This document shows, piece after piece, positions 20,673 through 52,347 of a DNA stretch of 64,000 nt. The number at the start of each line of letters is the position of its first letter. Position 1 is the stretch's first letter. Both the position numbers and the translations under genes were made by a program. Source of the DNA: Nocardia sp. BMG51109 (GTDB taxonomy: Bacteria; Actinomycetota; Actinomycetes; Mycobacteriales; Mycobacteriaceae); the NCBI RefSeq assembly GCF_000526215.1, contig NZ_JAFQ01000004.1, positions 1,550,001 to 1,614,000 on the forward strand, written 5' to 3'. The notes under the pieces are model-generated. The model was not told the origin of the DNA, did no database searches, and was given only the letters and a program-made list of their open reading frames with translations.

Positions 20673-20824
20673 GCTGTTTCCCTCGGGCACGAGCGGGGTG
20701 CCTGCGGGGTTACGCTCCGCTGCCGCCTCCGGCCCTGACCCGCTCATGCTGTGTCCACCGGGCACGAGCGGGGTGCCTGCGGGGTTACGCTCCGCTGCCG
20801 CCTCCGGCCCTGACCCGCTCATGC
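20673..20824. repeat. Tandem pair of palindromic repeat units inside the mce4 operon
   Basis: Two copies, period 75 bp, identical over 66 bp (20684-20749 and 20759-20824). Each contains an inverted repeat with arms GAGCGGG and CCCGCTC (20691-20745 and 20766-20820) enclosing a core that shares GCGTAACC and GGCGGCAGC (minus-strand reading) with the repeats at 41.4 and 50.4 kb. The right unit begins with the ATGA that overlaps the stop of the upstream gene. The period is a multiple of three, keeping the frame open. Confidence 0.85.
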
Positions 20825-21760
20825 CACGAACTCCACCTGGGAGGCGGTGGTCCCGTGGTCGTCGTGGATCACCGTGACGCGGAAGCGGTAGTAGCGATCC
20901 TGCGGCTGCTGGGTGCCGGCATTGGTCAGGGTCTGCTTGGCCGCGACCAGCACCCGGGCCGTGGAATCGTCCTGGCTCTCGATCGCCGCCTCGATGATCT
21001 CGCCGCTGGCCTTCACCTTGGCCTGCTGAACGACCTGGGCGTAGGCATCCTTGCGCTGGGAGTACTCGTCCTTCAGCTCGCCGGAGGCCACCGACAGCAC
21101 GCGGTCGATGTCCTGCGGGGCGGTGTCGTCGCTGATGTGGGTGAGGTTGAGGACGGCCTGCTTGGCGGTCTGCACGTAGTCCGCGCGCCGCTCGGCCACC
21201 GCGTCGGCCTGGTGCTGGTGGTAGAAGAAGAATCCGCCGCTGCCGAGCAGGACGACCAGGGCCAGCACCGCGGCCGCGGCGGCGGTCCAGCCGAGCTTGC
21301 CCAGCGTGCCGGGGCCGCGGCCGTCCGAACCGGCCGCGTCGCCTGCGGCCACCGCATCGTCCCGGCCGGAGGCGGTGTCGTTACCGACCGCACCCGCCGA
21401 GACGACGACGGTATCCGCGGCACTGTCACCCGAGCCGGAAACTGTTGTGCCGCTGACAGATTCGACACCGGAAGACCCGGCCCGGCCGGAGGCGTCGGCC
21501 GAACCGGAAGACTCCGACTTGCCGGAGGATTCGGCATCGCCCACATCGGCGGTGGCCCACTTCACCGTCGGCGCGCTGTCGAGCCGCACCGTGGTGTCGT
21601 CGCCCGCCACACCGGCCTCGGAACCACCGGCGACGGGTGTCGCAGCGCCGGTGGCGGCCGAGTCACGGGTCTCGGTCTCGTGCCGCTCCTCGACCGGGGG
21701 TCCCGCGTGTCGGCTGGCACGCCGCCGGGACCGCCCGCCGTTGGGTGTGGTTTCGCTCAT
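20819..21760 (-). CDS. mas4A: Mce-associated membrane protein (Rv3493c-like) with long disordered N-terminus
   Basis: 313 residues from the ATG at 21760. About 145 N-terminal residues are Ser/Gly/Ala/Asp-rich and look disordered (for example SGKSESSGSADASGRAGSSG). A single membrane segment follows (about 152-172, TAAAAAVLALVVLLGSGGFF) and then the Mce-associated extracytoplasmic domain with ADAVAERRADYVQTAKQ and RYYRFRVTV. It starts 13 bp after the mceF stop and ends overlapping the repeat region. It probably acts with the Mce4 sterol transporter at the membrane. Confidence 0.82.
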   Translation of the reverse strand: MSETTPNGGRSRRRASRHAGPPVEERHETETRDSAATGAATPVAGGSEAGVAGDDTTVRLDSAPTVKWATADVGDAESSGKSESSGSADASGRAGSSGVESVSGTTVSGSGDSAADTVVVSAGAVGNDTASGRDDAVAAGDAAGSDGRGPGTLGKLGWTAAAAAVLALVVLLGSGGFFFYHQHQADAVAERRADYVQTAKQAVLNLTHISDDTAPQDIDRVLSVASGELKDEYSQRKDAYAQVVQQAKVKASGEIIEAAIESQDDSTARVLVAAKQTLTNAGTQQPQDRYYRFRVTVIHDDHGTTASQVEFVA

Positions 21761-41378: not shown

Positions 41379-41442
41379 ACGGCACTCGCGTCAGGCCCGT
41401 AGGCGGCAGCTTGCGTAACCACGGAGGGCCCGCGAGTGCCGT
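41379..41442. repeat. Palindromic repeat element with 12-bp inverted arms
   Basis: Arms ACGGCACTCGCG and CGCGAGTGCCGT are perfect complements (41379-41390, 41431-41442). The core shares TCAGG, AGGCGGCAGC, GCGTAACCACGGAGGG with the units at 20.7 and 50.4 kb, while the arm sequence differs. It sits between the KstR box and the start of the oxidoreductase gene, in its 5' leader. Confidence 0.85.
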
Positions 41443-41474
41443 CGTCGACCCAGCCCTGGCCTTGCCACCAGAGT

Positions 41475-41488
41475 TAGAACCTGTTCTA
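41475..41488. promoter_or_regulatory. KstR operator in the divergent oxidoreductase/DUF35 promoter
   Basis: TAGAACCTGTTCTA has perfect TAGAAC/GTTCTA arms. It lies 27 bp upstream of the DUF35 gene and 109 bp upstream of the oxidoreductase gene. Confidence 0.87.
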
Positions 41489-50290: not shown

Positions 50291-50499
50291 GCTGCGTACT
50301 CCCCTGCCTCGATCGTGCCGGCCATACCGTGTCCGTCGCCCATGCCGCACCCGTCTCCGGGACGACCGAGGGGCCCTCCGTGGTTACGCACGCCGCCTCC
50401 TGCGGGCCCTGACTCGGTCATGCCGCGACCGTTTTCGGGATGACCGAGGGGCCCTCCGTGGTTACGCACGCTGCCTCCTGCGGGCCCTGACTCGGTCAT
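50287..50499 (-). CDS. 70-aa ORF encoded by two palindromic repeat units
   Basis: It runs from an ATGA overlap with the metallopeptidase stop to an ATGA overlap with the membrane-protein start. Residues 1-26 and 27-52 are near-identical (MTESGPAGGSVRNHGGPLGH and MTESGPAGGGVRNHGGPLGR), followed by an 18-residue tail. Whether the peptide is made or the frame only keeps ribosomes moving is unknown; the repeat origin argues against a classical protein. Confidence 0.4.
   Translation of the reverse strand: MTESGPAGGSVRNHGGPLGHPENGRGMTESGPAGGGVRNHGGPLGRPGDGCGMGDGHGMAGTIEAGEYAA
50362..50499. repeat. Tandem pair of palindromic repeat units (period 78 bp)
   Basis: Units at 50440-50499 (arms ATGACCGAG/CTCGGTCAT, perfect 9 bp) and 50362-50421 (one arm with a single T-to-C change that becomes a wobble pair). 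The core shares TCAGGGCC, GGAGGC and GCGTAACCACGGAGGG with the 41.4 and 20.7 kb elements. Confidence 0.87.
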
Positions 50500-51011
50500 C
50501 CCAGTGCCTCGTCGAATCGCAGGACCGAGACGCCGGCGCCTCGGTTGTGGAATACGCGCAGCCGGGTCATCAGCATGCTGGCGAAGGTCTCGGCCTCCCA
50601 TTCGCACTGCTCGTCCTCGCCGTCGTCGACGACCTGCTGATGCGCCCGCTGGCTGAGCATGTAGGCGATCAGGTCGTCGCTCGCCTCCATCGTGACCTCC
50701 GGCGCCGGTGCGCCGGGGTGGTCGAAGACGATGTGCCCCAGTTCGTGGGCCAGAGTGTGCTCGCGCGTGGGCAGCGACGGCGCCAACACGATCACGTCCT
50801 TCTCCGGGAAGATGCGCCGCTGTCCGCAGACGCCCGGGCCCAACTCGCCGCTGGCGCCGATCTCGATCGGGCGGCGGCGCTCCGCCGAGACGGCCTGTAC
50901 GACCTCGTCGAGGGTGGTGGCGTCGTAGTCGGCCGCCACCGCGCAGACCGCGTCGACAGCCGCCGCGACCCGGCGGTAGGAGCGGCCACTCTGTATGCGA
51001 CTTTCCGTCAT
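50496..51011 (-). CDS. ImmA/IrrE-type (M78) zinc metallopeptidase
   Basis: 171 residues. The zinc motif AHELGH places His89, Glu90 and His93; the third ligand is probably in ECEWEAETFASMLM, where a conserved Glu/Asp follows, as in ImmA/IrrE. Such peptidases often cleave a cognate XRE regulator to derepress genes; the EspR-like protein 1.5 kb away is a candidate substrate, which is inference. It starts 13 bp after the secreted repeat protein's stop and is coupled downstream by ATGA. Confidence 0.85.
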   Translation of the reverse strand: MTESRIQSGRSYRRVAAAVDAVCAVAADYDATTLDEVVQAVSAERRRPIEIGASGELGPGVCGQRRIFPEKDVIVLAPSLPTREHTLAHELGHIVFDHPGAPAPEVTMEASDDLIAYMLSQRAHQQVVDDGEDEQCEWEAETFASMLMTRLRVFHNRGAGVSVLRFDEALG

Positions 51012-51024
51012 CGGTCACCCCTCA

Positions 51025-52347
51025 TCAGAAGAATTGCGCGCGAGCGGCGTCGATGCGGGCCTGGGCGGCCGAAGCGCTCTGGAAGCTCACCGCACCGGAG
51101 CCGGCCGCGGCCAGCGCCATCGCCGCCAGGCCGCCGACCACGCTCAGCACCTTGATGGGCGGGAGCAGATCGGAGTCGGAGGTCGGGCGCACGGCCTGGT
51201 TCGGCTGCGCCTGGGCCACCGGAGGCGGCGGCTGTGGGGCCGGGGGCGGGGGCGGCGCGGGGGCTGCGGGGGCGGCCGGGGGCGCGGCCGCGGGAATCGG
51301 CGGGGGGACCACCGCGGGAAGCGCCGGGACCGGCGGCACGGGGACCGGCGGGATCGCGAGCGGCGGTGCGGGCACCGCCGGCGGGGGCGGCACCGGAACC
51401 GGCTGCAGGAGCAGCAAGAGCAGCAGCGGCGAAAGCACCGCCGCGGAACCGACGGCGGCCGAACCCACCGCGGCGGAACCTGTTGCGGCGGAACCGAGTC
51501 CGGCCGATCCGGTGGCGGCGGAACCGGTGCCCAGCAGAGCCGCCAGCGCCGAACCGGACCCCACGGCGGCCGAACCGGTCGCCGCCGAACCCGTACCCAG
51601 CAGCGCGGCCAGCGCCGAACCGGACCCGACCGCGGCCGAACCGGTCGCGGCGGAACCCGTACCGAGCAGCGCGGCCAACGCGGAGCCGGTGGCCGAGCCC
51701 GTACCCAGGAGCGCGGCGCCCGCCGCGGAGCCGGTGCCGGCGAGGGGCGGGCCGACGACCGAACCGGTACCCGCCAGCGCCGAACCGGTGCCGGCCGCGG
51801 CGGAACCGGTCGCCGCCGAGCCGGTGGCGCCGGCCGCGGAACCCGCGCCGAGTGCGGCCGAACCGGTACCCGCGGCCGCGGAACCCACTGCGGCAGAGCC
51901 GGTTCCACCGACCGCCGCGGAACCCGTACCGGCGGCGGCCGAACCCGCGCCCAGGATTCCGGCCGATCCGGTGCCGAGGATGGCGGGCAATCCGAGCAGG
52001 CCGGCATCGATCCGACCGGCGTCCTGCACCGGAGCGGAGCCGGGGTCGGTCGATGAGGTCCGGTTCTCCGAAGGTGCCGACCCCGGAGCCTGATTGTGCG
52101 GGGACACTGCGCCCGAGCCTTCACCCTGTGCAGGCACCGCGCCCGAACCCTGATTCTGCGGAGGCACCGAATCGGTCGATCGGCCCGGAATCGTGAGGGG
52201 GACGCCGTCCGAACTCCCGGAATCCGGCGGCGCGCAGTGCGGGCAGGGGTCACCCGGCTGGGCCTGCGCAGCGAGTGGGCCGAGCACGCCGGAGCCGCCG
52301 ACTATCCCGGCTACCACCACTACGCGCGCTATGCGACCAACGGCCAT
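51025..52347 (-). CDS. Secreted Gly-Ser-Ala repeat protein with Pro-rich stalk and C-terminal membrane segment
   Basis: 440 residues. Signal peptide 1-30 (ending AAQAQ), then a CPHC pair at 35-38, a polar linker, a GTGSAA-type repeat region (about 125-305) that includes a 22-residue unit repeated two to three times, a Leu run (308-314), a Pro-rich stalk (315-385) and a hydrophobic segment (about 399-417) before a short tail. It looks like a surface protein held in the membrane. Composition recalls PE-PGRS-type repeats but no PE domain is present. It heads the operon with the M78 peptidase. Confidence 0.72.
   Translation of the reverse strand: MAVGRIARVVVVAGIVGGSGVLGPLAAQAQPGDPCPHCAPPDSGSSDGVPLTIPGRSTDSVPPQNQGSGAVPAQGEGSGAVSPHNQAPGSAPSENRTSSTDPGSAPVQDAGRIDAGLLGLPAILGTGSAGILGAGSAAAGTGSAAVGGTGSAAVGSAAAGTGSAALGAGSAAGATGSAATGSAAAGTGSALAGTGSVVGPPLAGTGSAAGAALLGTGSATGSALAALLGTGSAATGSAAVGSGSALAALLGTGSAATGSAAVGSGSALAALLGTGSAATGSAGLGSAATGSAAVGSAAVGSAAVLSPLLLLLLLQPVPVPPPPAVPAPPLAIPPVPVPPVPALPAVVPPPIPAAAPPAAPAAPAPPPPPAPQPPPPVAQAQPNQAVRPTSDSDLLPPIKVLSVVGGLAAMALAAAGSGAVSFQSASAAQARIDAARAQFF

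Follow-up and report, generated by a model that had tools for sequence, protein, structure and literature searches.

The window, a stretch of 64,000 nucleotides from Nocardia sp. BMG51109, holds a single palindromic unit at 41.4 kb and related units at 20.7 kb and 50.4 kb (Table 1). Direct reading of positions 41379 to 41442 gave a 40-base core between two 12-base arms, and ACGGCACTCGCG pairs with CGCGAGTGCCGT throughout, in agreement with the perfect 12-bp arms of the original prediction. The 41.4-kb copy lies between divergent genes and is without ATGA; no stop codon is needed there, and in the left arm CTC replaces the common TGA, with GAG opposite it in the right arm. The units at 20.7 kb and 50.4 kb are tandem pairs on the minus strand, with periods of 75 nt and 78 nt, respectively. 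These units had also been predicted and do have self-complementary arms, but the arms are longer than first given, being GGCATGAGCGGG/CCCGCTCGTGCC at 20.7 kb and GGGATGACCGAG/CTCGGTCATCCC at 50.4 kb. The core is shared overall, as had been claimed, except that the 20.7-kb units have GCAGGCACC in place of GGAGGG and the 50.4-kb units have GGAGGCRGC in place of GGCGGCAGC.

Table 1. Repeat units and their parts in the 64,000-nucleotide window
Feature	Position	Strand	Remark
Left arm ACGGCACTCGCG, single unit	41379..41390	+	Perfect pairing with 41431-41442
Conserved core with TCA bulge (3 nt), inner helix, and apical loop	41391..41430	+	
Right arm CGCGAGTGCCGT, single unit	41431..41442	+	RNA fold z = -4.33
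Probable tail CGTCGACCCAGC	41443..41454	+	Right end placed from the tails of other copies
Unit 1, 20.7-kb pair	20748..20822	-	Begins at the ATGA holding the stop of the upstream gene
Unit 2, 20.7-kb pair	20673..20747	-	
Left arm GGCATGAGCGGG, 20.7-kb unit 1	20814..20825	-	GGCATGA is host sequence, found as well in most relatives that lack the unit
Right arm CCCGCTCGTGCC, 20.7-kb unit 1	20761..20772	-	
Unit 1, 50.4-kb pair	50422..50499	-	ATG to ATG is 78 nt
Unit 2, 50.4-kb pair	50344..50421	-	
Left arm GGGATGACCGAG, 50.4-kb unit 1	50491..50502	-	
Right arm CTCGGTCATCCC, 50.4-kb unit 1	50437..50448	-	

Elsewhere in the window, a palindrome, TAGAACCTGTTCTA, lies at 41475-41488 ahead of a ChsH2-like gene, with the 41.4-kb repeat just upstream of it. 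We take this palindrome to be similar to a KstR-type operator, and its AGAACCTGTTCTA is kept in all 15 of the 15 relatives aligned. Low-complexity tandem repeats occupy 51436-51981, within a 440-amino-acid frame (minus strand, 51025-52347) rich in G, S, A, and T.

The 41.4-kb unit belongs to a large family. Within its own genome (8.8 Mb), blastn with this copy found 59 places (E <= 0.001), and a covariance model, R1, built on 39 of the 40 first units of that genome with L043 omitted, gave 81 matches at E <= 0.001 and 101 places at E <= 0.1 among the 150 scored of 13264 candidates. The original prediction had granted that its loci would amount to chance or simple duplication if further copies were lacking or had unpaired arms; the 59 blastn places and 81 model matches are such further copies. 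It had also proposed a covariance search across Nocardia, in which all 39 of the 39 Nocardia genomes scanned carry the repeat, at 1 to 81 copies each. A pattern search allowing up to two mismatches detected the repeat in 7 of 7 Nocardia genomes and in none of 291 genomes that represent 75 other genera of the order, and the model, with 31 candidates scored per genome, matched in 3 of 3 genomes of the same genus and in 0 of 147 others. Among named genomes, the core pattern returned 71 stretches, 70 from Nocardia and one from a record of Streptomyces africanus NRRL B-24243 (L136) that shows 100% identity to a stretch of Nocardia rhamnosiphila (L114) over 5384 bases. The Streptomyces record is in all likelihood misnamed or contaminated, and it was left out of the counts because of this identity. 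Plasmid records included one Nocardia farcinica replicon with 17 places, and the stretch of it that was inspected bore no annotated feature; phage records queried with one unit gave no match. We conclude that the repeat forms a family carried throughout the Nocardia genomes scanned.

Units are 72 to 78 nt long, stand singly or in tandem, and follow the order left arm, conserved core, complementary right arm, and tail. The core is close to TCAGGCCCGGAGGCGGCAGCnnnGCGTAACCACGGAGGGCC, and the tail of about 12 to 18 bases often ends in ACACAGC and is followed by the next unit or by the downstream start codon. Array copy number varies, as the same site in two Nocardia species (L093 and L131) differs by 156 bases, equal to two 78-base units. 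Apparent remnants were also seen, one with ATGACCGA plus GGCAGCG (L165) and another with ATGACCGGT followed directly by tail-like GGACGCAGC-ATG (L274), each as if the core had been lost. In the predicted RNA, about 12 bp form the outer stem, which is followed by a bulge of 3 bases on the 5' side and an inner stem of 5 bp; the apical part hardly varies, and two GGAG(G) stretches lie in its loop. In RNA folding, 5 of 6 pieces exceeded shuffles in stability (z -2.1 to -4.3); the 20.7-kb piece, for which the query lacked the outer GGC, was no better than shuffles (z +0.81). A second subtype, recognized by eye in alignments, has an outer stem of 6 to 7 bp broken by a purine-rich 3x3 mismatch and pairs more weakly in simple register, with runs of at least 10 in 5 of 26.

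The genomic context, which the original prediction had singled out for a check, is telling for many units, in that they lie at ATGA stop/start overlaps, and not for the 41.4-kb copy, which does not. An upstream frame (at least 80 codons, high GC3) was detected for 54 of the 98 first units examined, and in 38 of these 54 its stop falls inside the left arm, 6 to 8 bases ahead of the core; NTGA is absent from the left arm at 42 of the 98 sites. Comparison with relatives revealed empty and filled sites. Among 13 orthologues of the 50.4-kb site, 7 are clean, with GGATGA running straight into the downstream gene, while 4 carry a unit or units (one shortened), 1 carries a remnant, and 1 carries another insertion. 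At the L123 site (9 rows), 4 relatives read TACGG-ATGA without a unit, 2 rows have a unit between TACGG and ATGACC, and 3 have altered or shortened copies. The 9 rows of the L089 site comprise 1 that is clean, 7 with units or altered copies, and 1 with other sequence, and relatives without a unit were also found at the L087 and L129 sites, where the ends are less exact. The nine relatives compared at 20.7 kb all share the host end, as GTGGCATGA or in a closely similar form (GTCGCATGA, GTCGGATGA), and none of the nine has an intact unit. All 15 relatives compared lack a unit at the point where the 41.4-kb copy lies; one relative without it (L159; G005:C146:170638-170719) has a second-subtype unit slightly downstream, close to or within the start of the ChsH2-like gene. 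Judging from these alignments, we conclude that units have inserted at ATGA stop/start overlaps at several sites.

Where empty and filled sites can be compared, ATGA flanks the unit on both sides, which is indistinguishable from an element whose own end reads ATGA. Empty relatives retain the outer bases of the left arm, so that the host supplies half of the left arm at ATGA sites. Moreover, the right arm often matches this host end: CCC/GGG at 50.4 kb, CC/GG at L123, GCG/CGC at L089, and GAC/GTC at L087, with outer pairs at L087, L089, L123, and L129 read by eye from the alignments.

Reading frames were followed through the repeat in 172 units, of which 59 have no left-arm NTGA and 18 have no start codon 68 to 83 bases on, leaving 95 that could be scored. 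When the ATG or GTG nearest to 75 nt was taken as the next start, a choice that may flatter the frame counts, 45 of the 95 are in frame with that start, 38 end in a TGA that overlaps it, 8 are otherwise open, and 4 have a stop inside. Counted per site and by length modulo 3 only, 42 of 98 sites could be scored, and 21 are in frame, 19 fit a -4 overlap, and 2 fit neither. The third frame is closed by a TAA in the consensus core, and most units use one of the other two frames. Because two frames are in use, the encoded peptide is not one sequence, and the exit frame is what is kept. An open frame that spans the unit and has high GC3 to its left and right was found for none of 77 first units with NTGA and for 10 of 49 without it (9 in the sense direction and 1 only in the antisense direction). 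We conclude that units at ATGA sites tend to retain an exit frame suited to the next start.

The original prediction held that pairing is kept while the arm sequence changes. When arms were swapped among 40 units of the own genome, own arms had a mean score of 25.3 and swapped arms a mean of 17.4; the own right arm was unmatched by any other in 12 of the 40, and in the remainder 1 to 36 others equaled it. Across the genus, 98 sites, each given one representative after flank clustering of 136 first units and with no hand-picking, had 662 of 1078 cells Watson-Crick paired at positions 2-12, compared to 378 on average and at most 458 for shuffled right arms and to no more than 377 when the register was slid by 1 to 3 bases. 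Pair by pair, in a set of 96 first units that was not thinned by site, outer pairs 3-13 and four of the five inner pairs exceeded the best of 300 shuffles in Watson-Crick count; this did not hold for pairs 1, 2, and 14 or for the innermost pair of the inner stem. Moreover, 94.6% of cells are paired and 14 pairs changed on both sides in a 38-row alignment biased to well-paired units (36 hand-picked from the 96, the 41.4-kb unit, and L100, which had second-unit coordinates and was cut at the left arm), and 0 of 500 shuffles equaled it. In that alignment 18 rows have a base in both column 14 and column 58 and 19 rows have a base in neither, the sole discordant row being mis-cut, and as aligned these columns are one base pair gained or lost jointly in the two arms. 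Orthologous sites with altered yet paired arms were also found, for example, L088/L140/L147 and L132/L139/L144. We conclude that the arms covary, both within the own genome and across the genus, as had been proposed.

Either a DNA cruciform or an RNA hairpin had been offered as the structure under selection. Among 105 well-paired units of the 172, positions 2-10 contain 40 G.T and 3 A.C combinations (30 and 3 when counted once per locus), compared to about 98 and about 80 expected from composition only. The same direction was obtained with one unit per site (17 versus 3; 55 well-paired of 98 sites) and, without a filter, in the inner stem of 96 units (16 versus 3). Over positions 2-12 the counts in 80 well-paired units are 39 and 25, and A.C is common at the two outermost pairs, the left bases of which often belong to the tail of the previous unit. 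All 98 sites without the filter, unpaired cells included, give 52 versus 51, and the asymmetry depends on restriction to well-paired units and positions 2-10. The asymmetry in well-paired units favors a structure in the element's own strand, either RNA or single-stranded DNA, over a cruciform, and it makes a double-stranded cruciform unlikely as the only reason for the pairing. Of the two structures first offered, the well-paired units therefore favor the one-strand (RNA) hairpin, while the unfiltered count is even.

The explanation that we prefer, to which we assign a probability of roughly two in three, is that of a Nocardia-wide, MIRU-like mobile repeat that inserts at ATGA junctions, carries a relay frame, and forms a covarying hairpin in mRNA. 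A unit of about 75 nt would insert immediately before an ATGA stop/start overlap, or would duplicate the ATGA, and because the unit has its own ATGA at its start, the upstream gene would keep its stop there. A relay frame of about 25 codons would then either continue in the frame of the downstream gene or end in a new -4 overlap with it. The left arm of the outer stem would take in the last bases and the stop of the upstream gene, and paired substitutions and G.U steps would maintain the pairing. In the absence of upstream translation, the closed hairpin would conceal the inner start and GGAGGG, whereas a ribosome arriving from the upstream gene would open the stem, in an RNA-unfolding form of translational coupling. 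That ribosome would restart at the overlapping ATGA, read the relay frame, and pass translation to the downstream gene. We infer such gating of translation by the hairpin, the tolerance of insertions that would result from it, and movement of the units by some machinery; relay of translation would account for the tolerance of operons to insertions. The relay proposal does not explain copies outside junctions, such as that at 41.4 kb, for which the lack of ATGA and the divergent genes mean that coupling cannot account.

The combination of ATGA overlaps, an open relay frame, and tandem arrays is of a kind already known. Passages of a 2025 review (PMC12548453) describe MIRUs as apparently mobile elements that insert at start codons and carry an ORF linked to the gene through -4 coupling. 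The Nocardia repeat is likewise short and both dispersed and in tandem; only at ATGA sites, of which 41.4 kb is not one, does it share with the MIRUs of those passages start-codon insertion with a coupled internal frame. It differs in that its arms are about 12 bp long and locus specific and in that it was found here only in Nocardia. Homology was suspected from the resemblance of a MIRU motif to the core, and nhmmer in both directions gave no cross-match among the best 25 of 70 and the best 25 of 766 (best E of 5.1 and 0.22), the MIRU copies having been fetched with that motif. Copies of the motif were found in 5 of the 151 genomes of the family, and the five all belong to a single other genus. 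The flanks of 20 such copies are short and complementary, pair over 4 to 7 bp, and read GCGCCG/CGGCGC in 7 of the 20, and in a flank swap test 128 of 2000 permutations scored as high. Because no sequence match to MIRU appeared among the matches listed, homology was rejected and we call the repeat MIRU-like only. The remark that no named family with this core was known holds for Rfam, which at gathering score recognized in the window a tRNA as its sole family, and for the literature on the repeat, MIRU structure, Nocardia repeats, and MIRU coupling, which held no description of it among the matches listed, although the kind of element is known.

Other known repeats share some of these properties. 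REP sequences are, like the Nocardia repeat, short dispersed hairpins in many copies; they have conserved stems and a GTAG-type foot and are mobilized by RAYT transposases. The stems of the Nocardia repeat, by contrast, vary by locus and its conserved part is the loop. Rickettsia palindromic elements are likewise palindromic and allow in-frame reading, whereas 10 of 126 Nocardia first units lie in a frame that is open through the unit. MITEs are small mobile elements with inverted ends common to their copies. The Nocardia repeat is also small and mobile-looking, with inverted ends and a possible 4-bp ATGA duplication, but its arms differ between sites and it has no shared terminal inverted repeats.

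The main rival to the relay is selection of the hairpin for mobility, in which a single-stranded DNA hairpin would be the substrate of some transposase or recombinase and the translation features would merely mark the copies that survived in operons. Hairpins serve as enzyme substrates in REP/RAYT systems and at IS200-type ends, and G.T is tolerated better than A.C in single-stranded DNA too, so that the wobble bias fits this rival, as does the existence of empty and filled alleles. Moreover, pairing is perfect at 41.4 kb, and A-like units have paired runs of at least 10 in 19 of 25 cases without NTGA and in 71 of 85 with it; because the two groups pair equally well, pairing cannot serve coupling alone. 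Retention of frame at ATGA sites, however, points to translation, and we regard this rival as unlikely.

A second alternative is that the arms are matched at insertion, the right arm being a guide that selects the host sequence around ATGA or a copy of that sequence. The outer left arm is indeed present in empty relatives, as GGCATGA at 20.7 kb and as GGATGA at 50.4 kb and L123, and the right arms at these three sites pair with the host bases. At L089, however, the third outer pair is paired in 4 of 7 filled orthologues and unpaired in 3, so that if the insertion is shared, the matching changed afterwards. One outer pair is mismatched at each of L120 and L146, and codon use may account for GGC being the commonest host triplet. 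Matching at insertion thus seems improbable as the source of the pairing. A still less probable extension, which we raise as speculation, is a stem with two owners, one arm being half made of the last codon or codons and stop of the host gene and being recognized by the element's other arm as an RNA or single-stranded DNA guide, which would choose the ATGA junction, or be matched to it, by base pairing. If this were true, the repeat would amount to a minimal mobile element guided by nucleic acid and doubling as a translational relay.

Arm-to-arm template switching during replication (quasipalindrome correction) could keep the arms matched without selection, and the joint gain of a pair at columns 14 and 58 and paired changes of several bases are what it would produce. 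It would not be expected to favor G.T over A.C by 40 to 3 in well-paired units, and single wobble steps occur among orthologous differences (L094, L110, and L137), such that we give template switching little credence. Finally, a transcription terminator or an ordinary palindrome spread by simple duplication would suit GC-rich hairpins in intergenic positions but is highly improbable, since the arms differ among loci and yet pair, a covariation that contradicts duplication, and since direct reading found no T-run after the 41.4-, 20.7-, and 50.4-kb hairpins, for which reason a simple terminator was rejected.

The MIRU-like relay that we prefer would make the Nocardia repeat a second and richer case of the MIRU kind, genus-wide and with empty and filled alleles, a covarying hairpin that includes host codons, and retention of frame. 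The repeat opens direct tests of whether insertions are tolerated through a relay of translation and of what moves the units. It may also provide tandem-repeat loci for typing Nocardia and may alert annotators to artificial N-terminal extensions.
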